From: Lojkania enalia
Taxonomy: Eukaryota; Ascomycota; Dothideomycetes; Pleosporales
NCBI GenBank assembly: GCA_010094045.1
Contig: ML986760.1
Coordinates: forward strand, 36,991 to 100,990
DNA length: 64,000 nt
Direction of reading: 5' to 3'
Below are positions 1,157-62,938 of this stretch, one piece after another. The notes below the pieces were generated by a model. It was not told the origin of the DNA. It worked only from the letters and a program-made list of their open reading frames with translations, and did not search any database. Position numbers and translations under genes: made by a program. Numbering within the stretch: the stretch's first letter is position 1; the number at the start of each line of letters is the position of its first letter.

Positions 1157-4100
1157 CTAATGTAGCCGTCTCAAAACCTCCACCATCCCCTTTACACTCT
1201 CAACATCAACGCCCAACCCTTCAACAGCCTTCCTCTGCACCTCCTCCTCGACATCCAAGAATCTCTCAATCAAATCCCCATCGACGAATCTATAAGGCTC
1301 GTCAGACTCCCTCACCGCGTTCTTATATGCGCGGTATTTGGCGAAGGGGATACCACCAGGCGAAGTGACAAGGTCTCCAAGATTAGATTGTAGGGTCATG
1401 AGGAGGTTTAGGTAGTTCGGGGTGATGAGCGCGAAGAGGTAGAGCGAGCCTTCGACCTATCCCACAATTAGTAAATCTTGCGAACACCATATGATGATGG
1501 ACAATCTTACAGTAGCCATGAACGCCCTCGGGATAACCGCGGCATCTGGCACCGTCGCGACATCAATCCTCCGAATCCTATTCACCATCTCGCCTAGCAA
1601 CATCTCCGAGCTCATTTTCAGTCTCTTCTTATCATCCTCCGTGACACCGTTCGGGTCTCTGTATAGAACTGCGAGGTTGCCTTCAGCGTCGCTTTCGAGG
1701 TATGTGTTCTCGTCTACTTCGGCCACAGCCGTGGACCAGGTAGTCTGGAAATGCCGTGCGACTTCCGTCATGGTGTCTGAAAGTCCTGTTTCACCCTTCT
1801 TATACTCAACAACGACGACGGACTTCATGAGATCGGCAATGGTTATTAGGGAGCCATTGACGAAAACATCTATCGGGGCCGTCGAGCAGCGAAATGTTGC
1901 AGTCTTGACAAGATTGGGCTTCGATTGGGTGCGGTATTTGAGATCGTAGATGACGATAGTCTTGATGAGAGCAGCGACGATTTTACCTTGGCACATTGCT
2001 AGACAGCGACATCCGCCTTTTACAGCCATCTCTGTAACAAGCTTGAGTCTCCTGTCTTCTGTAACTTCTAGTATAAGAATACGGCCACGCTCAGCGGTCG
2101 CGTTTTGATCGTCCAGGTATGCAGTGCCGACAACGAAGCGCTCGGCGTCGTCGCCAGAGCCGTCGGGCAGCTCGCATCGCATTACGCTCTCAACGAGCTC
2201 TTCTTCATTGAGCTCGTATGTGTCAAGCTCTTTGAAGAGAATTTCATCGACGAGTTTGAAGTGAGATAGGAGGATTTCCTCTCCACCTTTCAAAATTCGT
2301 TTAATCGTACCAAGTCCAAACGCCTTGAGGCTTGGTGAATATGCTATCCGTCGGACCGTCTCATCAACTTTTAGTGTCTGGACATGAGTTCTACGTTCAG
2401 CATCTACAAGCGCAATTCTAAGATCTTCCGATGTTGCAATAGCAACGGACTCGGGGTATGCTTCTGAGTCGAAGGGACATACGGTTGTGGCTTTCTCTGC
2501 TGTGACTGCAGAATATACTAGGCGGCCTTCGGAGCCATAAATTAGCGATGGATGCTCGCATGTTGCGAAGACGTTATAGAGACCGGCCCCTCTAGGTAGT
2601 GCGTGGAACGTTGCTTGTTGAGTGCCGAGCACAATGCTCCTCTTGCCGGATAACTCGTTCGTCAATGCGTTAAATGAGTAAGTAACGACATTGCCATCGG
2701 CCATGGCAATGAAGAGCGTAGGTGGTTGATCGGGAAAGATCTGAGTTAGAAGTAACGAGCGCGGCACGGAGTCTTCCGAGGGCTGAACACTCACTACTTC
2801 TTCTAACGTATCGATCGAGCATACCGAAAGCTTTGAGTTTTGCCAGAACCCGACGAAGCAGATCGGAATGTTATCAGGTGGTAGAGCAATGCAGGCAACT
2901 TGACTGTCTGCACCATATGTTTTCTCCTTCAGAACATTCAAGTTTCCATCGATGCTAAGAACGACAACGGTAACGCCACCCAAAGAAACAACGACATGAG
3001 TGCCATTCGTCGAGGCGGCGGTAATGACTTGTCCATCTGATGGCAACCATTCAGATATGACCATCCCACCGTCTAGATCTGTGGTTTGTACCCGAGAGCT
3101 TGTAACTTGCACGACGCGCCCTTGAGAAATATTCACGGCAGCAAGGGTAGTTTCTGTCATGGAAAGGCCGGCAAACCTTTCCACCTCTTCCACTTCCCCC
3201 TGGGGATCAAAATGGAATGCTCGCGATTCATTGACGAATGTTACAAGGAGCGTGTCGTCGTAAGCGGATGAGGCGTTAGATTTCAAGTTGAAAAGATTCG
3301 TGATGTGCTCGATGTCACCGAGAAGACCTACATCTTCAAGGCCAACACCACTTCGAACGCTCCTTAAACTGCCATCCTGGTAGGCACCGCTCCCAGTGAC
3401 TATTCGGGCTTGGCCCGAAGAATACTCGTTAGTCTGCCCTTCGCCAGATCGATTACCCATGTCCATGATGGTGAAGTCGAGGATCGGAGCAATGTTAGAG
3501 AAGGCTTGTACCACGTCGACCGACCCCTCGCCAATCCTCACGACCTGTGAATCGCCCTGGTGCGACCCAACGAAGACGTATCCAGCATCCAAGTATACCA
3601 ACGTAGAAGCTCGTGATGTTTCCCCGATGACATCAAGTTTCCAGCTCCGTACTTGATTCCCGTCGTTCAGCACGAGCATGAAGAGATATAGCCGGCCGTA
3701 GTCATCCGCGAATATAAATCGCTGGTCATCAACGCGCTCCCACGCAACAAATATAGTGGCCTCCTCAAGAGGTTCTGTGAGAAGCTCGCCAGTGTCGTCA
3801 CTATAGTATCCTATCGAGGTCTCCCCAAGGATGACTAGTCCGCCTACTTCTAGTCAGTATTAATCCATCCAAGGTCATCTAGGGAGCGTACACGTAGGCT
3901 CCGCAATAGGTATCAGATGGCTTGAGCCAAGCTCCAGTTCGCCCTGATAATGCTCGCCATCATCCAGCTCAATTGAGTCTCCTCCGGAGAAGGATAGTTC
4001 TCGAAGCTTCAGTCGGACGTTTGAGTGCGTGTCTTCGTAAAGGAGGGCGAGTTTGGGCTTATCATCGCTGGACCTTGGCCGGAGAAAAGCTGATGACCGA

Positions 4101-31600: not shown

Positions 31601-32951
31601 GTTCCTGATCTACTTCGTTGTCTTCATAGTGGTGTCAATCAATGGGGACACGTCCAGCCAGAAATCGACTCTCAACATTGTGTACTTGGCCCTCGGACTC
31701 TTCTCGCCGGCGGTGAGTCTCTCTAGGTCGCTATTTCTCGCGTCGAACGCCTTTGGAGTGGCATGTCGAGACAAGAGACTCGCTTCTTACCCAGGAGCTA
31801 TCGACATTTATGGAGGATCGATCTTATATCTCTGCTTGCAGTCTCTCGCCTTGTTTGCTAACCTGATTTGGAGGGAATCAGGGTGGGTCATCCGACTATG
31901 GCCTAGGAGAAAAGTGAACACGATAGAGGATATCGAGCTCAATTTACCTACAGTGCTTACCTATCTAACGAGCGGTCTCCGAGCCTATGGCCTCCAAAAA
32001 CGTTTTGGAAAGCATATAGCAGTCGACGAGGTCTCTTTCGGCATTCTTCGAGGTGAATGTTTCGCCCTCGTCGGACCTAACGGCGCTGCCATATCGACCA
32101 CAATCTCCATGATCCGCGGCGACCTACGTCCAAGAAGCCGCGAGAGTGAGATAGTCATAGACGGAATATTAGCAATGAAGCATCGCTCCCAAGCCCGACC
32201 GAAGCTAGGAGTCTGTCCGCAAATCGATCCTCTAGATAACATGACTGTGAACGAACATCTTCTCTTTTACGCGAAGATCAGGGCGCTCAACAATGCGCCA
32301 CAAAATGTTAAGCGGATTATGAAGACTGTGGGGATTGAGCAGTATGCTGATCGCATTGCGACGAAGCTTTCCGGCGGTAATAAACGAAAGCTATCACTCG
32401 GTATCGCGTTGATCGGGAGTCCAAGTGTGCTGTTACTCGACGAGCCATCTTCTGGTATGGACGCAGTAAGTAAGCGGGTCATGTGGCGAACTCTGTCTTC
32501 AATAATGCCTGGTCGATCACTACTCCTAACAACACATTCCATGGAGGAAGCCAATGCCCTGACAAGCAGTGCTGGAATCATCGCCGGAAGAATGTTAGCG
32601 AGTGGGACAATAGAATACTTACGGCGTCGGTACGGTGATGCGTACTTCGTGCATCTGGTGCATATGGAAGCGCCACACACTGGGGCGGGAGAAATGGAAG
32701 AATTGAAACGCTGGGTTCAGGGTGAGTTTCCAGAGGCGAAGATTGACAGAAGGTCGTCTTACGGTCAGGTCAAATTCGAACTCCCATTTCGGGAAACTGA
32801 GGGAATAAGATCTTTGGCGGATGTTTTTGCGAGGTTGGAAGCGAAGAAGAAGAGGTTGGGTGTAGAGTACTATAGCGTTAGTACGGCTACGTTGGATCAG
32901 ATATTCTTGTCAGTTGTGGGGATGCACGCCCCTGATGAGACGTGTCAGTAG
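28671..32951 (+). pseudogene. Broken ABCA-type full-size ABC transporter
   Basis: This is the relic of a full ABC transporter of the ABCA class (TMD-NBD-TMD-NBD), which move lipids across membranes. It starts MGLLIHQIYTLTVKNLRILL with an intron at about 28798-28844. NBD1 keeps Walker A (GANGSGKST, near 29850) and signature LSGGQKRK, but Walker B ends in VDG rather than VDE. NBD2 keeps LSGGNKRK, LLLDEPSSGMD and TTHSMEEA, but its Walker A lysine codon is Ile (ATA at 32091). In-frame stops sit at 29009, 29806, 30466 and 31557. The frame changes near 29742, near 30815 and near 31000. With so many lesions it cannot give a working transporter. The last 450 codons are still open, so decay is recent or partly constrained. 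Confidence 0.9.
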
Positions 32952-34013: not shown

Positions 34014-34910
34014 TTATTCATTCTTGAGGTCCGCATGCTGCACAAGGTAGGTCTGGCCATCTATCTCAACCCCCTTCCTTAACAAATTTGCGATCTGGTC
34101 ATCAGATTCTTCCTCTTCATCCTCAGTATCAGTCTCTTGATTGTTAGCCCTCGCGTCAAGGCTATCCGCCAAATCTACGCTTATCATTTCATCCTCGTCA
34201 TCCCGGCTGCGTTTCTGGCCCAGAAGCGACCAACTAATATCTGTATCTAGCATTGCTTTATCGATATCCTTTCTTCTGAACCCCCAGCTCTTCCACGTTA
34301 CCTTCTTATACCCGACCGCGAATATCGTTTCTCCTTCCATCTCAAATGCTTTGATAGACTCGTTCGATAGGACCCGACCTACATTAACACTAGTGTCCAG
34401 CGCAATTCCCACGCCAGGAGCAATTGCGTCCACTGGTATCGACGCATTAGCATCAGTCGATCGCTTCCTTGTGTCGCTTCTCGTTATCTTCGGATCCATT
34501 GCTGTCTGGAGTTCTACTACGAGGTAACTTTTGCTACCAGCCTGGATTCCGTCATTCAACCACTGACGAGCCTTTTCATCTTCATAGCAGAGAGACTTGA
34601 AGATTTCTCTGGGTTGTTTGAGAACGTAGCGAATGACTTTGATCGAGCGCAGTGAGGCTTCAGTGCCATCTTCGGAAGAATGGCTTATTCCGAACAAGCG
34701 TGTCAAGGCTAGTCGGAAAGAAGATTCGCTGCTAGATGATGCAAGACCTTGGAAAGATTTTGCGGGGATCTTGAGGATTGCATCTGCCGGAAGAGTCTCT
34801 TTGGGTACGTAGGCATCCATTACTGGATTGTGTATTGATTCGACAAGGGTGCCAAGGCCTAACGCGTCCATCGGCAGGCACTCGTCAAGAAGCATCATTT
34901 GCGATGCCAT
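34014..34910 (-). CDS. Candidate fungal gasdermin (pore-forming cell-death protein)
   Basis: A single-exon gene of 298 residues from the ATG at 34910 (context AAAAATGG); an in-frame GTG 33 nt further up is not needed. Gasdermins are pore formers freed by cutting off an inhibitory C-terminal part. The segment order resembles the gasdermin N-domain: hydrophobic/amphipathic start (6-30), beta-hairpin region (65-107), a helix REIFKSLCYEDEKARQWL, then KSYLVVELQTAMDPKITRS (127-145), which parallels YVVTEVLQTQKEVEVTRT of human GSDMD in place and pattern, and AFEMEGETIFAVGYKKV (188-204). Residues 231-271 are charged, mostly acidic, and 272-298 form a short tail, like the brief inhibitory ends of fungal gasdermins. 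It is divergent from a CHAT protease gene. The assignment is inferred; an unrelated fungal protein remains possible. Confidence 0.6.
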   Translation of the reverse strand: MASQMMLLDECLPMDALGLGTLVESIHNPVMDAYVPKETLPADAILKIPAKSFQGLASSSSESSFRLALTRLFGISHSSEDGTEASLRSIKVIRYVLKQPREIFKSLCYEDEKARQWLNDGIQAGSKSYLVVELQTAMDPKITRSDTRKRSTDANASIPVDAIAPGVGIALDTSVNVGRVLSNESIKAFEMEGETIFAVGYKKVTWKSWGFRRKDIDKAMLDTDISWSLLGQKRSRDDEDEMISVDLADSLDARANNQETDTEDEEEESDDQIANLLRKGVEIDGQTYLVQHADLKNE

Positions 34911-35179
34911 TTTTGCGCTTATCAACGAAAATTGATTGCGCACGCAGTTGAGGTCGACTCAATATTATTATCGGCTTGTTACTTCTTATGCTAGGATCCG
35001 GTTCCATGGTCATCTTATACGGTGAGGCAAAAGCAACACTCGCTGTCTAGGTGCAGCCTAGGATTCGGCCCCCACCTTGGGTGCATAAATACACATCACC
35101 AAGAGGCAACTTGCCGCGCCATCCATTGAGAAACATATGCAACACCAAGCTACGGATGGAATGACTCACCTAGATAGTC
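34911..35179. promoter_or_regulatory. Shared divergent promoter of gasdermin and CHAT genes
   Basis: 269 bp lie between the two ATGs, which favours joint expression. A TATA-like CATAAAT at 35084-35090 is about 90 nt before the CHAT start. Two upstream ATGs (35137 and 35156) precede the CHAT start. The first opens a 30-codon frame that runs past 35180 to 35229. Confidence 0.5.
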
Positions 35180-38100
35180 ATGACATCCAGACAAAACGAA
35201 TTGGAGGAAGCCGCAGAGCAATTGAATAAACAGCACCTTGAACTTTGTCAAGTTTTTCGACGAACTTCAGATGTTGCGATTCTCGAGAAAGCATTAGGCT
35301 GCATCACTCAGGCAATCGAGAAGACAGCCAGTGAAGCTTTTGCATGTAGTGGTACACGTGCAGCCCATCTCACAAATCTTGGCCGATGCCAGACCTGGCT
35401 GTTCGAAGCGACGGGAAATATTGTGCATCTAGATGGATCGATCAACGCTGCCAGTCTTGCCGTCCAAACTGTCCCTGAGTCGTCACAATTGGTACCAATA
35501 TGTCATGTCAACCTCAGCAATGCGCTCGCCCAGCGTTATTTCTTCAAAGGAGTAAAAAGAACAGACGATTTCGACAAGGCTTTAGAGCAGGCTCGAATAG
35601 CGGTCGCTACTACTGAAGAGGATAGCGAGTACTTTAGTTCTGCAAGGTCAACACTAGCTTCCCGTTTGGCGGAGTATTTCAACTACATTGACCGCGACGA
35701 TAAGTACATGGATGAAGCGATCCAAATTAACACTGAATTGGTCGAGAAGACTTCTGAAAACGACGAGCTTTATGGCGTATCTGTTGTCAACCTTTCAGCG
35801 GATATCCAAGATAGATTTCGTCGATACGGAAAGATCGAAGACTTGCTTATGGCAAAGAAATATTCTACTTTCGCGATTAAGGCCTTTCCTCCCGGAAGCC
35901 AGTACCACTTGCTGGCTGTACGACGATATGCTGAGGCTGTATATGACATCGTAGACACCACAGGCGAGACAAAGGAGCTTGAAGCAGCAATTGAAGGACT
36001 GAATGCACTTGAACTTAAAACCCACAACGCCCAAGACCTGGCAAAAATACACCATGAAAAAAGTCGCCTCTACGAGATGAAGTACCGAAACTTCTCTGAT
36101 CCCAAAGACCTTGATCGATCAGTACAGTCAGCTAATGCAGCTTTAAATAACCTTTCCGACGAGAGCGGTTTCCTGGGAATTGTCTTACAGCGTCTGAGTA
36201 ACGTTTTAGCTGTTCGAGCGGAGATGCAAATGTCTTTGGAAGACATCAACGCTGCAATCGACTATGCTAGACAGAGCGCAGATGTCGTATCTGGTATTCT
36301 GGCTAGGGAAGCTGTGGCTTTGAATGCTCTAGCTAACCGATATGCAACTAAATTCGAATTGTTCGGAGGAATGCAGAATTTAAAGGACTCAATGGCATTT
36401 AGGCGACGACAATTGGAACTACTACCAGAGGATCACAAAGATCGGCCAATGAGAATGCATGCCTTAGCAATCACGTTAAGGAATTATTTTGAGCAGTACG
36501 GATCCATATTGTATCTGGACGAAAGTATAGTACTAGAGCGGAATGCAGTAGAGAGTCTACCGAAGAGTTCTCCAGAACGCCCCATGGTTCTAGACGGCCT
36601 GAGCCATTCCTTATCGGAGCGGTGCAAGATTACGGGAGATACGCACGACTTACAAGAGGCTATAACAGCATCTGAGGCTGCTGTTGACGGTCTTCCGAGT
36701 GGCCACAAAGATCGGTCGGCATTCCTAAATGGACTGAGCAATCGATTGAACTCGAGATATTCAAAATTCAAAAATAGAGATGATCTGGACAGAGCCATTA
36801 CAGCAGCAACTGAAGCCGTTTCGGCTTGTGAAGGCGGCTCTTCCAGCTATTATATCTACTTAAACACTCTTTCAAGTTGTTTACACTCCCGATTCGAGGC
36901 ATATCAAGATCCCTCCGATCTCGATAAGACTATTGAAATCGCGAGACAATGTCTACATCATACACCGATCTCAAATCCGTTCCGGATAAACGCCCTAAGC
37001 AACCTAGGCTTGAGACTACAAACAGCGTATTTTCGAGCAACCGAAGACGAAGAAAAGCTTAGATATCTAGAAGAGTCATTACATATTGCCGCGCAATGTG
37101 TTGATCAGACGCCGAAAGACCACCCAAGCCTACCTGGATTTCTATCGCAATTGGCTGGGAGACAATTATTTCTCGCCCCTCTAATGCATGGTGCAACGGA
37201 TGAAGAACTCTTAAGTCAAATGATGCTCGCAGCCTCGACGTACGAGCAAGCTTTTAATCAGACGTACGACACGCCACTGAGTAGGATACGTAACGGCGAG
37301 TTCTGTGGTTACATTTACATGGAACGAGGCAATTGGGAGAATGCGAGTAGAATGCTTATGACGAGTGTTGGCCTATTCCGTAGGGTTAGTCCATTATCAT
37401 TGAATGATAATGATCGCCAAAGGCAACTTCACGGGTTATCCGGTATATCGTCGTTAGCATGTGCATGTTTTATTGCCGTGGGAAACCCTGAGAAAGGACT
37501 AGAAGTGCTCGAGGCTGGAAGAGGAATTATGGCAAACATTGCAATGGGCTATCATACGGATTTGTCGGACCTGAGAAATGCTGATGCACAGTTGCACAAT
37601 GAATACATTGACCTCCGCAATCGACTCTCAGAACCTCTTCCAGAAATCCAAATGGGCCCATCCCATGGAGAAGATATTGTAGCAGAGCGGAACGCAGATC
37701 TTGTACAGTTTGAAGCTCTTGAATCAAAGATACGCGACTTGCCGGGCTTTGAAACATTCAATCGCAGTATGACTGCTGAAAGCCTGCGTAAATTGGCGGT
37801 CTTTGGCCCAATAGTAGCGTTTTGCACAGTTGATCAAAGATGCGATGCAATCATTGTCACCCAGGCAGGAATTGAAGCGATCCGTCTACTAGATTTGAAG
37901 AATTCAGACATCAAAGTCCAAATAAGCAATGTTGTAGGAAAGTCTCGTTTGAGTCTAATGGCACCTTCGAGGAGAGGAGTTGCAAACAAGAAAATGAGGC
38001 ACTTGCTTGAGTGGATATGGGATAAGGCAGTTCAACCCGTATTAGAACACCTCCATTTGCTCGGAGATGAAGAACTACCCCCTGAACGCAAAACACGACT

Positions 38101-38965
38101 ATGGTGGGTCACAAGTGGCCCAATGGGTCTACTCCCTCTCCATGCGGCAGGGAAGGGTTCAAAAATACCGCTACAGAATACGTATGCCCACATTATTTCT
38201 TCATACATTCCGAGTTTTGCGAGCCTTGCGTTCGCCCGCCAATGCCAGGAGAAGGTCGACGTCGCATCCCCTGCAATGGCTTTGATTACCATGCCACACA
38301 CGCCCGGTGGCCTCAACTCTTTAGCAACTGAAGATGAATCTCAAGCCATTCGCGAGGTCTTTGCCACATCCAGTCACATAAACGTTCAGCTCAGAGAACT
38401 CTGCCAGCCATCGGCAGAAGTAGTCTTTCACCACATCCGCGATAGTAACGTTGACATGCTTCACCTCGCTTGCCACGCAGAGCCCGACTTCGATGACCCA
38501 TCAAATACTGCTCTGCTCTTTGGCTCCGATCCGAATGCAACTGAGCCAGACCAGCTTCCTGTTGGCCATCTTCGGCATCTGCACACCTCGCCGCGATCCA
38601 ATCGACGACCACCTCGACTAGCCTATCTCTCAGCTTGTTGCACTGCACAACAATACGACCTTCGTCTTATTGATGAGAACATTCATCTAGCATCCGCATT
38701 CCAGCTTTGCGGGTTCCCAGCTGTAGTTGGAACTCTGTGGGAGGCGGATGATGCTGCGGCAGTTGAAATTGTGAAAGCGTTCTACAAGGAACTCTTTCGA
38801 CTTGATCGGGAATGCCGCGAGGGGCTTGTAGAGAGCCAGTCAGGATATCATGTAGCGCGTGCATTGGACTATGCCATTGGATTATATAGGCGGATGAAAA
38901 TTGGGAGGGGAAGTGCGGCAATGGATGCGTTAGCTTGGGCAGGTTTTGTGCATATCGGGGCTTAG
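35180..38965 (+). CDS. TPR-CHAT caspase-like protease
   Basis: A 1261-residue single-exon protein. Residues about 1-820 consist of degenerate tetratricopeptide-type helical repeats of roughly 45 residues, each with the pattern DLD.AI..A..AV...P......L..LS..L..R (for example near 450-600). The C-terminal 300 residues are a CHAT domain, the clan CD cysteine-protease fold of caspases and separase: TSGPMGLLPLHAAGKG, YIPSFASLAFAR, DMLHLACHAEPD with catalytic-type His1099, LAYLSACCTAQQYD with catalytic-type Cys1153, and FQLCGFPAVVGTLWEADD. Both catalytic residues are present. TPR-CHAT proteins sense and cleave partners in bacterial and fungal death systems, and the divergent candidate gasdermin is the obvious substrate. 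There is no NACHT or NB-ARC domain. The start at 35180 is the first ATG in this frame. Confidence 0.92.
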   Translation: MTSRQNELEEAAEQLNKQHLELCQVFRRTSDVAILEKALGCITQAIEKTASEAFACSGTRAAHLTNLGRCQTWLFEATGNIVHLDGSINAASLAVQTVPESSQLVPICHVNLSNALAQRYFFKGVKRTDDFDKALEQARIAVATTEEDSEYFSSARSTLASRLAEYFNYIDRDDKYMDEAIQINTELVEKTSENDELYGVSVVNLSADIQDRFRRYGKIEDLLMAKKYSTFAIKAFPPGSQYHLLAVRRYAEAVYDIVDTTGETKELEAAIEGLNALELKTHNAQDLAKIHHEKSRLYEMKYRNFSDPKDLDRSVQSANAALNNLSDESGFLGIVLQRLSNVLAVRAEMQMSLEDINAAIDYARQSADVVSGILAREAVALNALANRYATKFELFGGMQNLKDSMAFRRRQLELLPEDHKDRPMRMHALAITLRNYFEQYGSILYLDESIVLERNAVESLPKSSPERPMVLDGLSHSLSERCKITGDTHDLQEAITASEAAVDGLPSGHKDRSAFLNGLSNRLNSRYSKFKNRDDLDRAITAATEAVSACEGGSSSYYIYLNTLSSCLHSRFEAYQDPSDLDKTIEIARQCLHHTPISNPFRINALSNLGLRLQTAYFRATEDEEKLRYLEESLHIAAQCVDQTPKDHPSLPGFLSQLAGRQLFLAPLMHGATDEELLSQMMLAASTYEQAFNQTYDTPLSRIRNGEFCGYIYMERGNWENASRMLMTSVGLFRRVSPLSLNDNDRQRQLHGLSGISSLACACFIAVGNPEKGLEVLEAGRGIMANIAMGYHTDLSDLRNADAQLHNEYIDLRNRLSEPLPEIQMGPSHGEDIVAERNADLVQFEALESKIRDLPGFETFNRSMTAESLRKLAVFGPIVAFCTVDQRCDAIIVTQAGIEAIRLLDLKNSDIKVQISNVVGKSRLSLMAPSRRGVANKKMRHLLEWIWDKAVQPVLEHLHLLGDEELPPERKTRLWWVTSGPMGLLPLHAAGKGSKIPLQNTYAHIISSYIPSFASLAFARQCQEKVDVASPAMALITMPHTPGGLNSLATEDESQAIREVFATSSHINVQLRELCQPSAEVVFHHIRDSNVDMLHLACHAEPDFDDPSNTALLFGSDPNATEPDQLPVGHLRHLHTSPRSNRRPPRLAYLSACCTAQQYDLRLIDENIHLASAFQLCGFPAVVGTLWEADDAAAVEIVKAFYKELFRLDRECREGLVESQSGYHVARALDYAIGLYRRMKIGRGSAAMDALAWAGFVHIGA

Positions 38966-40223: not shown

Positions 40224-42800
40224 TCATAGATCATCGTCGAGGTCGATGGCATCCGGGTTCGCGGTGTTGCTAGGCTCGGGGGGCTTGATATTGCCTCCCT
40301 CGGGCCCCGTGCTGGCTGCTACGAAGCCCTGCGGAGCCCTAGCCTGCCGTTCAAGGGCGGCCATCGCGTCCTCGCCTTCTATGTCGCCGTTGGGAGTGGC
40401 GTCGACCATGCCGTTTTGCTGGCTTCGGGCGATGGCTTGGGATGCGATGAAATTGACATCGGTGCTATAACTAGTTAACGCCTCACTCCACACGAATACT
40501 AGAAAGAGCAATACATACTTGTACTGAGCCTGAACGCTCCGCTTGATCCGAAGCATTTCCTTGAAGGTATCTTCATTGCCGTGCTGAATCTCGAATTGTT
40601 CCCATTGTTTCCAGAATTCAGGACTGATCCTCGGATCGCAGAACTGGCTTGCGTGGCCGTAGATTGCTCTTGCTCGGTCAATTTCTCCTAGCCGTCGTTC
40701 CATCTCGGCGAATTTGAGGCACATCTCCTTAGCCTCGTTGTCAGGTAGCGCCGCAATAGCGCGTTCGTAGATAGGCCGTGTCGAGGTGAGACCGAAGTTC
40801 GATGCTGATTTTGTTATGTAGAAGTTGAACATCTCCATACGATCCTCATCTGAGACAGCGCGCGTGGCTCGCTCATATATCCGCATAGCATGTCTAGCAA
40901 GGCCTCGGTCTTCCTCTAAAGCGCCGTACATGAGATACAGCACTTTGGCGAACTTTGGAGGACATCCTTCGACAGCTTGCTCAAACAGATCGCGTAGACG
41001 TTCCATCCCAATCTTCCGGTCAACAGCCTTAGTTAGGTAGAGGTTCCATAATTCGAAAGCAACGGGGTAGCTGAAGAGGTCCAACCCGCGTTCATAGACC
41101 TTGAAGCAATCTTCAAAATACTTGTTCTCTTCGAGAAGGTTGGCATAGTTGACAACAGTTTGCGGTGTTGCGATGCGAAGCTCGAATATCCTGTCATAGA
41201 CCTTCCGAGTCTCTTCAAGCGTACTGACACTCTCTACTAAGTCAACATAGAAACTCCACAACTTCCAGCTCTTGTGCACGCGTTGTTGCGGCGATAATGA
41301 CTCATCGAAGTAGTCGACGGTCGATCGTTTGGGTGCCTGTGTTGCCTTTGCCATAATCTCGACGGCTTTGTCGAAATTCTCATTACGAAGCTCCATTTCC
41401 GCCCATTCGCACCACATTTCAGCAAGCTCGGCGACAGACTTGAACGGCACTTTGACGGCCTTCTCCATGATTACGCGAGCGTTACGAAGGTCCCCCCCAT
41501 TCTCATAAAACTTAGCGTAGTTTGTCCACAATTCGTGAAACTTGCCCACAGCCTTTTTTGGGTTGACCGCGGCAATCGCATCGGTGTAAGTCTGCACGAC
41601 CTCTTTCTTGTTGTCGCCCCAAAGAGCAACTCGCTTTTCCCATTCAAGGACGTTGTGCGGGTTTTGCCGTAGCATGACATCATTGAGCAGGAATGGTCGT
41701 CGTTGCATGAGCGATTCAAACCGCACCATGCGCAAGTCGAGGTCGGCGTCAGCATCCGCGTCAACCTTGCCCTTATCCGACCGCGTTGCAGCGTCTTGCA
41801 GCTTAATTCCGATCATTGTTTCCTCGGCCTCGACGTACGTGTCGAAGACGACGGAGAAGTCCCGGACTGTCATAACCGTCGTGACACCCTCCTCGAAGAC
41901 ATCGCGGGCTTTCTCGTACTCACCCTTGTTCATCCAGTAACGGGCGAGGCCGACCCATAATATGCCTCGCTGGTCGGGGAACTTCTCAATGCCACTTCTT
42001 ATAATCTTCTCGACGTCTATGCCACTGTCATCTCCTGTCTCAATGTCCTTTGCGTGGTCGATCATCAAATCGATCATCTCCGTCCAGAACTGAAACGGTC
42101 CTTTGGCTTCCTTGCTCTTGAATTTCGGATTGTTTAATATCTCCATGTACTTCTTGACTGCTTCGGTGTATTTTCGCATGTCCTTCAGCAGCTCGATGAA
42201 CTCTTCGGCGTTTTCGGGATGGATCTGCATATATCTCCGCCAGATTCGGACTGCAGTCTCGCCGGACGCAGAGCTCGCGAATGGCCGGTAGAGAGCCCAT
42301 ATCCGACTGTGTTGCGTGAGGGGAAGGGCACGAAGGGCGCGGTCAAACGTTCTCCGGGTAGTAGTAACGAGCGGCTGCTGCATAAGGAAGTTGAGGTACA
42401 TCTCCCATATCCGCGGCATCTTGTTCAGCAGCACCAAGGCGCGCTCGAATAGGGCGTTGACCTTGACATAATGCGGTGCGTACTTCGCAGGGTTCTTCTT
42501 CTCGAGGTGCTTCGTCCGCAGCTCGAGGTAGAGCTTCCAGAGCTTGTAGGAGCGCGGCAGGGTGGTGCAGGCGCGCTCGAGAACGAAGGCCTGATCGAGG
42601 AGGCTGCCATGCGACTTCTTGTAGCTGTAATAGTCCAGCCACGGCTTCACGCTGCCGGGATTGCGTAGGATGTCTTGCTCGTAGACGACATCGGCGTCGG
42701 AAACGAGGAACAGGTCGCTGGCGCGGTCCATTTTGTCGGCGTTGCGCTTGCTAGGCCGCGAGAGGCTTGCCGTCATGGTGCGGAGGAGCTCGCCGGGCAT
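40224..42800 (-). CDS. SYF1: Pre-mRNA splicing factor Syf1 (XAB2)
   Basis: Syf1 is a HAT-repeat scaffold of the Prp19-associated (NTC) complex in the spliceosome. Exons 42800-40519 and 40464-40224 give 840 residues; the 54-nt intron has no stop and is a multiple of three, so unspliced RNA would also stay in frame. The N-terminus has DADVVYEQDILRNPGSVKPWLDYYSYKK and AFVLERACTTLPRSYKLWKLYL, the Syf1 hallmark. HAT repeats (W..Y..FE, A..[IV][FY]ERA) then run to about residue 730, for example RIWALYRPF and FELWNLYLTKAVDRKIGMERLRDLFEQA. The C-terminus is disordered and ends in IDLDDDL. A second ATG at 42776 is an alternative start. Confidence 0.96.
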   Translation of the reverse strand: MPGELLRTMTASLSRPSKRNADKMDRASDLFLVSDADVVYEQDILRNPGSVKPWLDYYSYKKSHGSLLDQAFVLERACTTLPRSYKLWKLYLELRTKHLEKKNPAKYAPHYVKVNALFERALVLLNKMPRIWEMYLNFLMQQPLVTTTRRTFDRALRALPLTQHSRIWALYRPFASSASGETAVRIWRRYMQIHPENAEEFIELLKDMRKYTEAVKKYMEILNNPKFKSKEAKGPFQFWTEMIDLMIDHAKDIETGDDSGIDVEKIIRSGIEKFPDQRGILWVGLARYWMNKGEYEKARDVFEEGVTTVMTVRDFSVVFDTYVEAEETMIGIKLQDAATRSDKGKVDADADADLDLRMVRFESLMQRRPFLLNDVMLRQNPHNVLEWEKRVALWGDNKKEVVQTYTDAIAAVNPKKAVGKFHELWTNYAKFYENGGDLRNARVIMEKAVKVPFKSVAELAEMWCEWAEMELRNENFDKAVEIMAKATQAPKRSTVDYFDESLSPQQRVHKSWKLWSFYVDLVESVSTLEETRKVYDRIFELRIATPQTVVNYANLLEENKYFEDCFKVYERGLDLFSYPVAFELWNLYLTKAVDRKIGMERLRDLFEQAVEGCPPKFAKVLYLMYGALEEDRGLARHAMRIYERATRAVSDEDRMEMFNFYITKSASNFGLTSTRPIYERAIAALPDNEAKEMCLKFAEMERRLGEIDRARAIYGHASQFCDPRISPEFWKQWEQFEIQHGNEDTFKEMLRIKRSVQAQYKYVLLFLVFVWSEALTSYSTDVNFIASQAIARSQQNGMVDATPNGDIEGEDAMAALERQARAPQGFVAASTGPEGGNIKPPEPSNTANPDAIDLDDDL

Positions 42801-43227
42801 TGTTGCGCGGGCACAGGCAGAGAGCTGCCCTCGGCGGGCAGAACCGTGATGGCGGGCGTCGATGCGGTGCAGAGCTGGCGATGAGGAACGAGAAAGATTT
42901 GGTGTGCGAGCGGGAGTTGCGGTCTGGTGCTTGCCAGCAGGCGCAGGGCGGCCGGCCAATCAGCGGCGGGCGAGAAACTGACGCAAAACAGGCGTTCCAG
43001 CGCACAGGCCCCGCTTCTGTTGGATCGCGCAGCAGCTTAGCTCCCTACCAGTACCGGGACGCCTCCGTCATACACAGACAGCCTGCCACCCGCCATCTAT
43101 CAATAGCTCTCCATCCGCTCACTGCCTCTCGACCCGCCGTCCCGAGCCGGCCCTTGCTCCCACCAGCCTTTCTTCCCACGTATTGTATTGTTGGCTTCGC
43201 AGTCCCGCCTAGGCGTCGGCAGACACA
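42801..43227. promoter_or_regulatory. Divergent promoter region of SYF1 and VMA8
   Basis: 427 bp between two opposed ATGs. The SYF1 frame stays open without an ATG into this region, probably by chance because it is GC-rich. C/T-rich stretches precede VMA8. Confidence 0.45.
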
Positions 43228-48399: not shown

Positions 48400-51300
48400 T
48401 CATTCCGACGTTCCATCCGCCTCACCATTCTCAGACTCATAATCGCGCGTAAAAGCCAGATTAATCCTTGCCAACCTAGCCCTCAGCACTGCCATACGCT
48501 CTTCGCTCGCCTCCGTTTCCTCACTATCCTCCACTTCAGAGTCCGACTCCTCATTTTCATCCACGCAATTACATCCATACCTCTGCTTATACTCGTGCTC
48601 TAGCAGTCCTTCCAACTTATCAAGTGCAATATTCGCCGCTTTGAGCCTAGCATACCGATCACTGACACTCGTTCCATCAAAGCGGACCTCGTTGTGGATT
48701 AGCACCATGCAAATAACAGTCGACCTCGCGCCCGGGATCGCAGACTCGATCATCGGCATGCATGCAATGCGGAATTCCTTGCAGCCAAAGTTGAGATCAA
48801 TGAGTCTCCTGAGACGTGTGACCGGATGATTATTTGCAAAGTCATCGTATAGCGACATATCCATGAAGAAATGCTTCATATGGTGATCGAAAAAGCTCTG
48901 TACGACGCCAAAATCGAACTCCGAGTCCACGAACATAGCGCCCACATACGCCTCCACGACATCGGCAAGGCACTTCGGCGCCTTGGAGACGGTGGTCCAG
49001 TAGTCGACCGCTCCATCCGAGTCGGCTTCCGCGGCTGTGATTTCGGCGACGTAGTCACGGATCTGTGCACTGAGTATTGCATTATTTTGACGGAGGTAGT
49101 GGTGGAAACCGAGTTTAACGCATATCGCGGCCAAGAATTCGTTGGAGACCATTGGCATTTTGTGCTCGGTGAGCCACTGTGGGTCTTTATCAGGATATCG
49201 GTAGAAGATGTGCATGATGAAGGCCATATCTAGGAGAGAGTCGCCTAGGAACTCGAGACGTTCGTAGTTGGGAATGTTTTCCCACATGAACGCTTGCGAT
49301 GAGTGGATGAAAGCCGATCGAAGGATACGAGGATACCTGAAATGGTATGGATGCTTCTGCTCGACCTTCTCGGCAAGGTCGAGTTGAGAAGCTGTTGCTT
49401 CTGCAATTTGATAATGCGGCATTTCGTATGCAGCATAGTAATCAGACCATCTCTGCATGGTATGGTCCTCACTGTCAACCAGTACTGTGACAGCTTTAAC
49501 TGCCTGATCCCAGTTCTCCGAACTGAAGTTGTCAGGGTCATTGTGTTCCATGAAGGCGGCGCCGATGAATGCTTCGCAGACGTCGGCGACTGATTTGTCC
49601 GCCAGAGAATGTTTGATTATCTTCGGGCCATCCTGCTTATGACCTTTGCCCCAAATCATCTTGATGCCTTCCGGATACCAAGTACGACTATGTATCGTTG
49701 GCGTAAAACTGGCAAATGAAGAGGGGAAACATACCGAGAGAATGCCATCGTACGGACATATTCGTAGAGTTTATACTTATGAGCGGTTTCGAACAGGTTC
49801 TTATTGCAAAGCATAACCATGCGGCGTACATGGAACTCAAACTCATTCTCATTTGGCTGTTGGACAAAGACGGCAATTGATGTTGCCATCTTCAAAAAAC
49901 AGTCTCCCATAAACTCTAAGCGCTCATAGTTCGGACCCATGCCGCTCCTAAAGTTGATCTTCTCCTCGCCATGCTCATCTGAGTTTTCTGAGTCTTTGGT
50001 GAGGGCTTCCAAAGCAAGAGCAGGACCAATATCAAGGCCGAGGAGGGAACAGGCATCTAATGCAATGAGATAACTATCGAAGCGGTGAATAATGGCCGGT
50101 AGTACATAGCACATGGCTACAAAACATGTGGTTAGAGCGGAAATCTTCATTGGTTCCGGGCAGACTACGGTCTTCGGCTTGATCTTGACTTCCGGTTCGT
50201 CCATTTCTACTACAGCAAGGAGGTTGCGACGGAAGGGAATTTTTTCCACTTCCACAACTGGTTGGTTCTGTACCCAAACCTTTTCGGTACGAGTCTTGCT
50301 CCAAAGACTGACGGAATAATCCAATATGTTTGCCATGAATTTGTGCCGCGGGACATTCTCGGGGACAGGATCTTGAGGACGAAGATCCGGGACAACGCCG
50401 AGTGAATAAAAGCGACGTCCACCATCCCATTTATCCACAAAGTATTTATCCCTAAGGAAGTCGTTCGGCATCTCCGGCGTCCAGGGATAATCCCCTTTCC
50501 CACAGACTTCATGTACCTGCTCCCAATCGATGAGGTCGTCTGGATTCCCATCCATAGCTTTGCTGGCCTTAGCTATATCGGCTCGTATAGGTACTACCCA
50601 GTACGACATTTTTTCGTCGTCGTCTTCGAACTTCTTCGCAAAAATATCGAAGTAAATTTGCAACGTGAGCTTGGTAAGGAGTTTCAATTTCTCCCTAGTG
50701 ACCGGGAGCGCATTTAATAGTGGCATTGACATCACGTATGAAGGTCGGCCATCCTCTAGGTATATAGGAAATTTTGGCATTAACGGAGGGCAAGCTTTTG
50801 TAAGAAGCCCCAGAGGTTGATGTGGCCGATCTAGACCTACGCTAACGTCCACTACGGTAAGGTAAAGACATTCAGGCATCACACCGTAGGCAAGCTGCCA
50901 GAATTTTGGTTTGACGCGCATGAGATACTGGTCTTTCTTTTTGGCGCTGATTGCAAGCAAAGCATTCCTCATAGCTGGAAGCTGCCTCGTAATTGTGGGA
51001 AGTAGCGTAGAGTCCAATAAGCCTTTAGCTCGAAGCTGCAGACACAGTTCGAATGCGGCTGAGCACTTAGCTATAGCCTTTTTCTTGTACGGTCGTCCCC
51101 TTGCAGATGAAATTGGGGAATGCTCGGGAAGAACAACCTCGCAGATAAACATTCCGCCATTATGCGAGACTATGTAGGTCGGCTGGTAGGACATCTCGGT
51201 ATTCGCGGCCGGAAGAGATCCCACGAAGTGTGCAAGAACCGAGAGACTAGACCTATAGGTCAGCTTGGCGCCGGACTCAGGGTCGGTGTAGCTGCGGTAA

Positions 51301-53193
51301 TTCCTCTCATCTACGAGAAGGCGATCCACATCGTTCCCTGATCCGTCAATAAGTCTATCATTGGGCAATCTATTGCAGAAGTCCTTCATAATCCTCTCCG
51401 CAGACCGAGCTTCCCACACTACTGCCTTGTGTTCAAGGTTGTCTTGTTCAACCATGTGTACGTATTTTGAGTTACGGTGCCTGGCTCTGCCTCGTGACTG
51501 GACATATCCGATCATCGTATGATATAGGTCAAATCGTACGACAAGATTGCACTGAGGTATGTCTAGTCCTTCCTCCGCAACGGATGTAGAGAAAAGGCAA
51601 TTCAGTTCCCCTCTCCTGAACTTCGCCACTGTCATGACCTGATTTCGAAGCGAGACATTGAGATCGCCAATATTGGAGTTTACTCCTACAAGAATATCAG
51701 TACGTAGGTTGGGACCCCCGATCTGGGTGAAAATGAGGTTTAGGAGACGAGCAGTACTGCGTCGTTCTACGAAGACGATGCATCGGGCTTCCCCGGTCCT
51801 CGAGTAATAGAGCTGCAACCAGCGATGGAGTTCAAGGACTTTAGAGCTTAGATGTTCGGATGTTGGCGTGGGAAGGCCAAACTCATGGTTCTGGACATAT
51901 TTAGCGGCTTCTTTCAACTGGGTTATTTGCTTATCCAAGACTTCAATGGAATGATTGCTTTTCGTCACATTAAACTTTCGTTCCTGTCTCATCTCAATCT
52001 TCCGGCTTTCTTCCTCCGAAAATGCAAAGGACCAGAACATATCGGAAGCCCAGGGACCGAGTTCGGAGGCAAGTCCTTTTGACGTTCTGAAGAAATTTTG
52101 GAACACAGGGACGTCTCCGTAGCAGCCCCTCAATTCTTGATGCAAAGATGTTTCAAACGGGGCTTTCAACCTCGAATACACTACCACTTCTTCTGTAGGA
52201 CGACTTATATTGTTTTGAAGAAGGGAAAGGTCTGAAGTCGTGCAAATTTGGCAGTGTAGTAACGTTTCGAGATCCCTCGCGGCTTGTCTTACGTCCATAT
52301 TTGCATCGACAGGTGAGGCTGTCATGCCGAAGATCTGGGGCCGCTTCCAAGAGTCTGGCTCATTAAGATAGTACTCCTTTATGAGTCTCGCATATGGATG
52401 GTTGTTCTTGGCATGGTGGGCCTCATCGAAAATGAGGAGGTTCACTCTGGACATGGTGATGAATGAGTGCATTATGCACTGGACCAGAACCTCGGCCGTA
52501 CAGATGATAACCATGTTGTTGGCGAATAACTTATTCCAAGTTGACTTTTGCCAAAGAGACGCACCCATTGCACCACATATGCCTTCAACGTTGTGGTCGA
52601 GGCCGCATTTCAAGACATTAGCCTGTTGAAATACAAGGTTCACCGAATCTACCTGTTCGGTGTTAGCTTTTGATACCCTTAGGATAGACGGAACCTACAA
52701 GGAAGAATGCCGTCTTGGGCGCTTCACCCCTAGTCCTTGATTCTAGCTCTTTGTCGAGAACATGACGCAACAGCAATGTTGCAATATGCGTTTTCCCTGA
52801 TCCAGTATCAAGTACAGCAATGATGTTCTTGTCCTTTGCCCTTTCATAGAGCTCAGTCTGGTATTCTCGGGATTTGGTGATTTGCGTGCTGGTTACTTGC
52901 TTTTCAAGGATATCCTTGATGGACAGGCGGTCGTCTTTGGCCCTAGAAAGAGCTTCTTGAACCTCTTTTTCTGTTAATTGCTCAGCTCTCTTAGCCGCAT
53001 ATGCCCTGAAAATGTCATTTTGAGCTTTGCGCTTCTCGCTAGACGTAAAAGGTGAGTGCCCATGGTCTAGCTCATCATCGTGATCGGAATCTAGATTACG
53101 ACCGTCTTCGGACTCTTGGTATTCCATGTCATATGCATAACCATCTTGATAGTCGTATTGTTGTTCATCGGGTAGATCTGCGGTCAAATTCAT
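48400..53193 (-). CDS. DCL1: Dicer-like protein 1
   Basis: Dicer cuts double-stranded RNA into small RNAs for RNA silencing, defence against viruses and transposons, and in fungi also meiotic silencing. Exons 53193-52695, 52648-49735 and 49687-48400 give 1566 residues. Domains in order: a 125-residue charged N-terminus; helicase with DTGSGKT (129-135), DEAH (241-244), GMTASP, and the C-terminal half with CLFSTSVAEEGLDIPQCNLVVRFD and QSRGRARH; a Dicer-dimerisation region; RNase IIIa (NYERLEFMGDCFLKMA, SVADVCEAFIGAAF); RNase IIIb (NYERLEFLGDSLLDMAF, LADVVEAYVGAMFVDS); and a weak dsRNA-binding segment near the C-terminus before an acidic tail. No PAZ domain is obvious, as usual in fungi. The long N-terminus and LVDSVNLVFQQ after the first intron fit DCL1 rather than DCL2. 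All catalytic motifs are intact. Confidence 0.95.
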
Positions 53194-59686: not shown

Positions 59687-62600
59687 ATGCGCCCTCCCTC
59701 CAGCTCCATGAGAGAGGCAGTCAAGGCCCTCACCTCCATCTTCTCCAATGCCACCGCGCCCTACCCGCTCCCCGACGAGCTCCGCCTCACCGTGCAGGCC
59801 TTTCTCGACCGCTACGAACACATCGAGGACCACGACTCGCAGCGCTTCCATGAGGACTTGCTGTCTCTGTACATGCGCCATGTTGCGGGGAGCCCAGAGA
59901 AACATGGCGCCTTTTTGAGCGCTCTCAAGCTGGTGCGGCCGGCTCTGACTGGGGAGGCGCGGTTGAACGAATGGTGGGGGTTGGTATTACGGCCGACGAT
60001 AGAAGAGATTGGGCACAAGCGGCACGAGGTTGAAGATGCGCGCGACTTTCTGCAGAGCATCCTAGTGTTCGAGCCAGATGAGGATAAGGATGGGGAACTC
60101 GCTAAGGTATCAGGCAATTTCTTGAAGAGAATCTTGGATTCATATCTTGCAAAAACACGCATCCCATCGTCGACAGAGCACGCCGTCTCCCCGGAGGATG
60201 AGTTTGTCGCGAACGAGCTCGAGTCGATATTAGTGGCTTTTGGTAGGCGGAGGCCTAAGGTATTGCGCTTACCTCTTCCTAATCTGCCTGTTCTTTGCTC
60301 ACTTGTACAGGACTTTCTCCTTGCCCTTGACCGCCTGCTTATCCAGAAGCAATATCGGATTCAAGCTCTTAACCTTCTAAGCGCATTTGTCCGGCTACAG
60401 CCGCCCCATCTCTATTTGGTTTTGGAGACGCCTCTCATCTTGCATTTGGAGAAATGCTTACTTATTGATACCTCATCAACCGTGATTGAACTCTCTTTGA
60501 TGGTTCTAATCATGTTCTTGCCTCATATCACCGGATCCTTGACATCCGATCATCATCTGGCCAAACTGTTCCTGATCTATAGTCGGCTGTTATGCTGGGA
60601 TAAATTTGGCGCCTCAGATGACGCCAATGAAGATGACGGTGCCGCCCATGACTCTGCCGATGACCGGTCTGAAGAAGACCATGAGCAAGCCTGGGAGAAA
60701 ATCCACCAGTCAATGGACTACCCCGATACATCGCCCCCGACTCTTCTCCATTACTTTACCTTTTTGTACGGCCTATTCCCGCTCAACTTTATGAACTTCA
60801 TCAGGAAACCAAGAAAGTTCCTGAAGTCGCTCGCATTTCCAGGAGCTGATGACTTCGATATAGACCAGGATCTTATTCACAGTAGAACCGAACCCTACCG
60901 ACGAGTACATCTGTTGCATCCGAACATGTTTGCGACCACCATCGAAGATGAATTGGCTGAAAACCGATGGCTGAAGAGCGATCCTGCGGATATAGTCACA
61001 GAATGTATGGACCTCTGTGTGGCCGTTTCGCCTACCTTGGCCGATCCTGGACCACCTCCAACATCCAAGCTGCCTGACCTTCCTGCGCCTCCTGTTCAAG
61101 ATACCCCACAACCGGACTTCACCCTCGACGACGATGGAACGACCGCAAACGAGTCGGCAGTGAGCTGGAGAAATACTCAGTCTACAGTATTCGCCGCCTC
61201 AACCAATGGCCAGCCAGAAACATTTGACATCCCCCCGAAAGCAAAGTCTGTTAAATCGGCCAAGTCTTCTAAGTCTGCTTCTCCGCTATTGAAGGGCCGA
61301 GACGTTATGGACAGCCCTACTCTAGGCCCAGCAAAGGGCGAAAAGAAACAACACTTTCTCGGCGCCCCAATTGCAACCTCCCGCGGCCCAACAAATTCGC
61401 CAAGCCTAGAAAACTTCGCACAGGCTGTAACTACGGCATCGGCGTCGAACTCCCCTACACATTCGGACTTTCAGAATCAAAGCATGGCAGCTCTACAGAG
61501 AGAAGTCATGCTCTTGCGGAACGACTTGAACTTTGAGCGATACTTGAAGTTGCAGCATCTGGCTCATATTGGACAGTTGCAGAGGAAGCACATCAAAGAA
61601 GCTACAGCAGAGGCCGAAACCCAGAATTTGATTAATACAAACCGTACGCTCAAGGCTCGTCTTGCGAAATCTAATGAGTTGTACGCTCAGCTGAAGAAAG
61701 AAACTTTAACCAGCCGTAGCCAGTCAAAGAAATGGGAGAGCGAGCTTAGTCAGAAGGTCCGATCGTATAGGGAAGACCAGAAGATCTGGCAAGGGGGAGA
61801 GGAGAACTTGCGGTTTGAACTTCAGAAGACCCAGCAAGATTGCGAGCATCTGAAAAAGATGGTGGAAAAGGCGGAAGCAGAGCAGCTAAAGGCTCAACAG
61901 AGGACCCGTGCTTTGGAATTTGAACTTGAGGATTATGGGAACGTGCGACGAGAGCTTGAAGCTTTGCAAGACAAGATACTCATGTTCGAAGACCAGAGCA
62001 AGGAGCTGGATGCGCTGATCGCCGAAAGAAACGAGCTACGTAATGAGTTGGAAATCGCGAACATGAGACTGAATAGTAGAGAACGTGAGCGAGAACGATC
62101 GATCAAAGCATATGAGCGACGAATCTCGGAACTCGAATCACGTTTGCAATCGGCTGATAAGAACCCTGGTAAGCCTGGACAACTCCCGTCGTCGGTCCAG
62201 CAAATGCTCGATTCGGCGCTAGCGGCAAACAATGCGAAACTGCAGCAGATGAAGAAGACCCATTATCGTCTACTGGAACAATATACGGAGCTGGAAATGA
62301 AATATCATGATCTTGAGGGCGAGCGACAGGCAGCGCTTGGCCGCGGGGAGAAACCCAGCTATCACGAGCTTGAGAAAGAACCACTGAGTCGAAACTTCAG
62401 CATCCGCAAGAACGATGACTCCTATAGTTCAAAGTATCTACCTCCCCTTTCTTCCGACCATCCTCCCGAAGAGTACGACTACTACACCGAGTACAACTCC
62501 CCAGTATCAATGACCAATAGTCCATCCACAATTGTTCCTAGACCTGTGCGCCTCGAGTCTTTACCACAACAAAGGCAATTTAAAGAGCCCGCGAGCGCCG

Positions 62601-62938
62601 AATATGGTCCAGATTTCTCTGCGGCATATGATGCTTCACTCAATGCCCACTTCCAAAGTCCGTCTCAACCTGAAACTCTCCACTCGAGCAACAAGAGCGC
62701 ATATTCGTTCGATACCAATAGCAGCAAAGGAGAAAAGAAAGATAAGGTGAACACGAAATCGGAGGTGCGAGTCTATGGTCGAGGTGAGTTCTTGGAGTCG
62801 TCTTTGTCTTCAAAGGCAGCAGCTAACTCGACAACAGGTGGCGCGCAGAATATTGGCAAGAAAATTAAGGACAAGGAGCAGAAGAAGTTAGGACAGACCA
62901 AGACGGGCGGCTTCCGAGGCCTGAAAGGCATTATGTGA
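59687..62938 (+). CDS. TSC1: Hamartin, TSC1 (Rheb-GAP complex scaffold)
   Basis: TSC1 stabilises tuberin (TSC2), the GAP that turns off Rheb and so restrains TORC1 and amino-acid uptake. The frame is open for 1083 codons, but two segments look like introns: 60260-60310 (51 nt, GTATTG...TACAG) and 62784-62837 (54 nt, GTGAGT, branch-like CTAAC, ACAG). Removing both gives 1048 residues and a smoother match. The N-terminal alpha-solenoid (to about 470) contains YRIQALNLLSAFVRLQPPHLYLVLETPL and CLLIDTSSTVIELSLMVLIMFLPHI, which follows human TSC1 ([39 protein letters not shown]). A Ser-rich middle is followed by a long coiled coil (about 585-860, EVMLLRNDLNFERYLKLQHL), then a disordered end KKIKDKEQKKLGQTKTGG. 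The start could also be the ATG at 59708. Confidence 0.94.
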   Translation: MRPPSSSMREAVKALTSIFSNATAPYPLPDELRLTVQAFLDRYEHIEDHDSQRFHEDLLSLYMRHVAGSPEKHGAFLSALKLVRPALTGEARLNEWWGLVLRPTIEEIGHKRHEVEDARDFLQSILVFEPDEDKDGELAKVSGNFLKRILDSYLAKTRIPSSTEHAVSPEDEFVANELESILVAFGRRRPKVLRLPLPNLPVLCSLVQDFLLALDRLLIQKQYRIQALNLLSAFVRLQPPHLYLVLETPLILHLEKCLLIDTSSTVIELSLMVLIMFLPHITGSLTSDHHLAKLFLIYSRLLCWDKFGASDDANEDDGAAHDSADDRSEEDHEQAWEKIHQSMDYPDTSPPTLLHYFTFLYGLFPLNFMNFIRKPRKFLKSLAFPGADDFDIDQDLIHSRTEPYRRVHLLHPNMFATTIEDELAENRWLKSDPADIVTECMDLCVAVSPTLADPGPPPTSKLPDLPAPPVQDTPQPDFTLDDDGTTANESAVSWRNTQSTVFAASTNGQPETFDIPPKAKSVKSAKSSKSASPLLKGRDVMDSPTLGPAKGEKKQHFLGAPIATSRGPTNSPSLENFAQAVTTASASNSPTHSDFQNQSMAALQREVMLLRNDLNFERYLKLQHLAHIGQLQRKHIKEATAEAETQNLINTNRTLKARLAKSNELYAQLKKETLTSRSQSKKWESELSQKVRSYREDQKIWQGGEENLRFELQKTQQDCEHLKKMVEKAEAEQLKAQQRTRALEFELEDYGNVRRELEALQDKILMFEDQSKELDALIAERNELRNELEIANMRLNSRERERERSIKAYERRISELESRLQSADKNPGKPGQLPSSVQQMLDSALAANNAKLQQMKKTHYRLLEQYTELEMKYHDLEGERQAALGRGEKPSYHELEKEPLSRNFSIRKNDDSYSSKYLPPLSSDHPPEEYDYYTEYNSPVSMTNSPSTIVPRPVRLESLPQQRQFKEPASAEYGPDFSAAYDASLNAHFQSPSQPETLHSSNKSAYSFDTNSSKGEKKDKVNTKSEVRVYGRGEFLESSLSSKAAANSTTGGAQNIGKKIKDKEQKKLGQTKTGGFRGLKGIM

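Follow-up and report, generated by a model that had tools for sequence, protein, structure and literature searches.

The window analysed here, a 64-kb stretch of DNA (C183:36991-100990) from a 58.1-Mb assembly of 400 contigs, carries two divergent genes that most probably (roughly four chances in five) constitute a regulated-cell-death module, where the sensor-protease P0002 would cut the gasdermin P0001 and the N-terminal domain of the latter would make pores. The interpretation of this locus in an initial annotation, a two-gene death switch, is supported. In favour of it are the CHAT domain of P0002 with its invariant His/Cys pair, the predicted fold of P0001, the pairing of such genes across species and within the same genome, and a precedent described in reviews, while weighing against it are sequence profiles that miss P0001, low pLDDT and TM-scores, a cropped model, relatives without partner and the lone genes on contigs C16 and C135. 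We infer that the TPR-like repeats of P0002 receive a signal that would switch on its C-terminal CHAT cysteine protease, which in turn would cut P0001 in or before an acidic C-terminal tail. Loss of this tail would free the N-terminal domain for acidic-lipid binding, oligomerisation and the formation of cell-killing pores, a step deduced from the fold prediction and by comparison with gasdermins already studied. Both ORFs are uninterrupted and divergent with 269 bp between them, in full accordance with the initial annotation, and the locus is composed as follows:

34014..34910, minus strand: P0001, gasdermin-like protein, 298 aa, uninterrupted ORF
34218..34910, minus strand: predicted pore-forming domain (gasdermin N-terminal type), residues 1-231, from the AF2 model and VIA alignments
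34476..34532, minus strand: KSYLVVELQTAMDPKITRS, residues 127-145, predicted beta-hairpin in the model
34269..34307, minus strand: conserved basic segment KKVTWKSWGFRRK, residues 202-214, from the family alignment
34017..34217, minus strand: acidic C-terminal tail, residues 232-298, from net charge
34041..34085, minus strand: conserved end motif LLRKGVEIDGQTYLV, residues 276-290, after a variable acidic linker, from the family alignment
34911..35179, no strand: intergenic region of 269 bp between the divergent genes, from coordinates
35180..38965, plus strand: P0002, CHAT protease/sensor protein, 1261 aa, uninterrupted ORF
35282..37081, plus strand: TPR-like tandem repeats of ~45 residues, residues ~35-634, from self-alignment and motif positions
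38003..38962, plus strand: CHAT cysteine-protease domain, residues 942-1261, PF12770
38474..38476, plus strand: presumed catalytic His1099 (ACHAEP)
38636..38638, plus strand: presumed catalytic Cys1153 (YLSACCTA)

The intergenic region presumably serves as a shared promoter, and its RNA fold is ordinary (z -0.84).

The larger protein, P0002, is supported as coding by 13 aligned relatives with identities of 39-62%, and its CHAT domain matches PF12770 with an E-value of 1.3e-31 and 110.5 bits (curated cut-off 24). His1099 and Cys1153, already pointed out in the initial annotation, are both present and invariant in 14 of 14 aligned sequences, and we take them to be the catalytic pair of the domain. 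The first 680 residues show a strong 45-residue period, the self-alignment score peaking at lags of 45 and 90 (mean score at lag 45 of 0.03 vs. -0.47, the highest best-lag score of 200 shuffles). Twelve repeat units, spaced 44-49 residues apart, stay in register from residue 131 to residue 630, one earlier unit starts at residue 35 and another, set by eye, near residue 83, and the protein probably carries 14 units in all. The designation “TPR-CHAT” stands for the CHAT part and for repeats that are TPR-like in their period, but the name TPR itself finds a single, sub-threshold Pfam match on P0002; TPR annotations are present in some of its close relatives (P0021, P0028, P0030). No NACHT, NB-ARC or STAND NTPase was reported in P0002 by the profile search (limit E 10, with filters that drop most matches above ~0.1), consistent with the earlier statement that the protease protein has no NLR sensor domain, and no solved structure was matched by sequence at E <= 0.01. 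Residues 971-1203 also weakly match the model of Csx29, the TPR-CHAT protein of Craspase (E 5.5e-7, 28.8 bits, cut-off 300). Csx29 is likewise a repeat-plus-CHAT protease, but it works as part of a complex that includes an RNA-guided nuclease, and the protein it cuts is Csx30, given as the Craspase substrate in PMC11106740.

The smaller protein, P0001, has 17 relatives in support of its coding status (identity 46-70%, with 67-99% of its length covered), and those with names come from Polyplosphaeria, Viridothelium, Trypethelium, Lophiotrema, Delphinella, and Glonium, all of which we take to be Dothideomycetes. Its ATG start is supported as well, being located in the same column in 11 of 15 aligned relatives and later in 4 of 15. 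A gasdermin fold is supported by the full-length AF2 model (mean pLDDT 59, best-placed blocks 75-87), for which fungal, bacterial and animal gasdermins rank above every other fold. The best 20 rows in Foldseek consist entirely of gasdermin or RCD-1 entries, including one GSDMB complex, and the best 23 rows in VIA are gasdermins or gasdermin-containing complexes, with alignments that begin around residues 1-10 and end at ~225-235 in most rows. The closest structural match is RCD-1, the best match reaching TM-scores no higher than 0.39 (query) and 0.52 (target). Another model, restricted to residues 1-235 and made from a slightly different alignment, was worse than the full-length one (pLDDT 43) and gave no match at E <= 0.001, with RCD-1 still on top (E 0.14); because of this confidence of 43, its long strands were not taken for the pore form. 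The structure prediction recommended in the initial annotation thus recovered the gasdermin N-terminal pore-forming fold in the full-length predicted model and was indecisive for the cropped one, and the strand/turn noted there, KSYLVVELQTAMDPKITRS, falls on a predicted strand-turn-strand (E128-138, E141-153).

Sequence searches, on the other hand, gave no match to known gasdermins. Gasdermin models were absent from the profile matches up to E 1 of all 16 family members, PF04598 (gasdermin family) had no match with E <= 1 anywhere in this genome, and PADLOC and NCBIfam searches gave no gasdermin match. Neither P0001 (best E 0.37) nor its family profile (best E 0.29) matched any solved structure significantly. 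Distant relatives were also sought with an alignment that took in three paralogues; the 7999 candidates scored, the upper limit of that search, yielded one new protein (P0140, by eye similar to the C42 paralogue described below) and no protein named gasdermin, so no direct sequence link from P0001 to RCD-1 or HET-Q1 was established. RCD-1 itself is termed a distant homologue in a review (PMC10989679). As curated profiles miss the P0001 branch, profile-based counts of fungal gasdermins may be too low. The failure of every sequence model to detect a gasdermin in P0001, together with the Csx29 match in the CHAT part of P0002 and the indecisive cropped model, would also suit a beta-rich CHAT substrate outside the gasdermins that, like Csx30 of Craspase, signals after cleavage without pores. 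We consider this very unlikely given that gasdermins outrank all other folds for the full-length model.

If P0001 is a gasdermin, as we favour, its C-terminal region (residues 232-298) is the candidate for both inhibition and cleavage. Residues 236-298 have a net charge of -17, and the ~60 residues after residue 235 carry -15 to -26 in 15 of the 16 members of the family, P0001 included, while the part preceding the tail has a net charge of 0 to +7. An end motif, (D/G)(G/D)(Q/M)x(F/Y)(L/I), most commonly DGQTYL, lies 10-15 residues from the end, again in 15 of 16 members; the exception is P0016 with a short tail of net charge -3 and no motif. Upstream of the tail, K203, W206, K207, S208, and W209 in the basic segment KKVTWKSWGFRRK are invariant in all 16 members. 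The tails of the paralogues at C298, C128, and C42, delimited by eye at 36-42 residues, have charges of -12 to -15. By analogy, the acidic tail would fit the short C-terminal segment of ~5 kDa that a protease is described to take off HET-Q1 (PMC12881547). HET-Q1 of Podospora anserina is reported to be of similar size (278 aa) with a short C-terminal part removed by a protease (PMC10989679), but its partner HET-Q2 is a subtilisin-like serine protease and het-Q1/het-Q2 are idiomorphs according to the review account (PMC12881547).

Pairing of the two genes is conserved beyond this genome. Contigs of exactly equal size were taken as the same contig, irrespective of gene orientation and distance, and 11 of the 17 relatives of P0001 were eligible, the other six being on contigs <4.7 kb that are too short for both genes. 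Seven of the 11 were matched in this way to a relative of P0002 (best 120 of 942), five of them also agreeing in species name; one pair of relatives sits on a single contig of 7934 bases, and the locus tags of another pair are consecutive (Q9165_008763/008764). For the remaining four (P0008, P0014, P0015, P0019) no CHAT partner was found among the best 120 of 942 protease relatives, a restriction by which their partners may be undercounted. Seen from the protease side, seven of the 13 aligned P0002 relatives have a gasdermin partner by the equal-contig test and six have none. Moreover, divergence is correlated across eight gasdermin/CHAT pairs (r 0.91, a value reached in 4 of 5000 permutations), a pattern that shared descent alone could give too. 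The initial annotation had staked its reading on relatives of P0001 occurring beside proteases, and they share a contig with a CHAT relative, by the equal-contig test, in these seven eligible cases and sit directly beside CHAT genes in the case of two paralogues of the same genome; at the locus itself the protease gene is adjacent, 269 bp away and well within 10 kb. Alternatively, P0001 might be a gasdermin without proteolytic activation by its neighbour that kills on contact of divergent variants, with the CHAT protein acting on another substrate or as inhibitor. The closest fold would suit this, as RCD-1-1/RCD-1-2 of Neurospora crassa are described as being without an inhibitory domain at the C-terminus and as killing only if the two variants meet (PMC11760362), but P0001 has a conserved tail of ~60 residues and its conserved partner is a CHAT protein in which the His/Cys pair is invariant, which makes contact killing an unlikely option here.

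Six places in the genome match P0001 at E <= 10, namely the window, C298 (2.7e-15), C128 (1.4e-8), C16 (0.007), C42 (0.03), and C135 (1.4). With a paralogue-free profile searched against selected loci and the window (E-values for 2000 sequences), the five places outside the window reached 1.2e-31 (C298), 4.6e-20 (C128), 1.8e-4 (C16), 0.003 (C135), and 0.006 (C42). The gasdermin-like genes on C128 and C42 are each divergent from a CHAT gene with ~0.37 and ~0.31 kb between the first ATGs (hand-counted), though the assignment of the C42 gene is weak, coming from low similarity (E 0.03) plus context. Both partners have CHAT first, followed by AAA/STAND-type matches, all under curated cut-offs, and this domain order is opposite to that of P0002. 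Coincidental neighbourhood was rejected, as ~0.004 cases would be expected by chance (5 P0001 relatives, 7 other CHAT matches, within 3 kb) vs. two found, of which the C42 match is weak by itself. The genome holds eight CHAT matches, three of them paired divergently with a gasdermin-like gene, and no gasdermin-like ORF was present in the 8-10 kb examined around the CHAT loci on C51, C30, C186, C36, and C131. Likewise, neither CHAT nor S8 protease matches were found anywhere on the contigs of the weak relatives C16 (L017:4468-5511) and C135 (L019:4764-5561), which perhaps belong to a related family under another control. The contig of C298 also has no CHAT or S8 protease match, and its gasdermin-like gene lies 0.6 kb from the contig end. 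The CHAT frame on C131 runs open to the first base of its contig. Both genes are situated at contig ends (L015:1-1463 for C298, L024:1-1677 for C131) and might conceivably be the two parts of a single split pair. An ORF with a HET domain (PF06985, E 1.3e-24; L018:3228-3947, minus strand) was observed a short way downstream of the gasdermin-like gene on C42, and a three-gene incompatibility cluster of gasdermin-like, CHAT and HET genes is possible there.

The putative sensors beside these related candidate executioners differ in one genome, with repeats and CHAT at the window and CHAT and NTPase-type matches at C128 and C42. A tentative extension, which we judge as possible but rather doubtful, is a divergent branch of fungal gasdermins that would be held off by the acidic tail mimicking acidic phospholipid on a basic lipid-binding face until CHAT removes the tail, the executioner family being wired divergently to different sensors within one genome. 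If true, one could trace how sensors are exchanged while the executioner stays constant. The signals detected by fungal death sensors are called an open question in a review (PMC12881547), and differently built sensors next to related executioners offer a natural comparison for addressing it, while the acidic tail points to a mode of inhibition that can be tested.

Gasdermin/CHAT pairs are already known in fungi, and P0001/P0002 adds one more conserved pair. One review puts the number of gasdermin genes in 400 fungal genomes at ~1900 and, drawing on the protease study, has ~80% of gasdermin genes clustered with protease genes (~63% with S8 and 19% with CHAT proteases, the CHAT ones being partly NLR-like; PMC10197012), and another gives CHAT as ~17% among gasdermin-clustered proteases (PMC10989679). 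The nearest precedent is a two-gene cluster in P. anserina (Clave et al. 2022, via reviews PMC12881547 and PMC10197012), which by review description likewise combines a gasdermin gene with one that encodes a CHAT protease carrying TPRs, reported as the activator. Bacterial gasdermins with nearby protease genes differ in being bacterial and in their structural match, which is weaker than that of RCD-1. Among the matches listed by literature searches, none dealt, by title or opening of the abstract, with this gasdermin subfamily or with acidic-tail inhibition of gasdermins. The added interest of the present pair lies in a gasdermin branch missed by profiles, in an acidic tail that is conserved and in the several types of sensor within one genome. 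Sublethal pores, e.g. for secretion, named as a role to explore for such clusters (PMC12881547), would be a highly improbable outcome for this pair, since the studied fungal gasdermins RCD-1 and HET-Q1 are reported to cause cell death (PMC12881547, PMC10989679).

The surroundings of the pair were initially described as gene-poor, which is not borne out: an ABC-transporter ORF stops at position 32951 of the window and a Syf1 splicing-factor ORF follows at 40224-42959, so the flanks are not markedly depleted in genes. Further away, the window contains an RSE1/DDB1/CPSF1-family protein (1457-3679, minus strand), a Dicer-like gene in two ORFs (48400-52643, minus strand) with helicase, Dicer dimerisation and RNase III domains, and a hamartin (TSC1)-like protein (59687-62938, plus strand; PF04388, E 1.1e-12).
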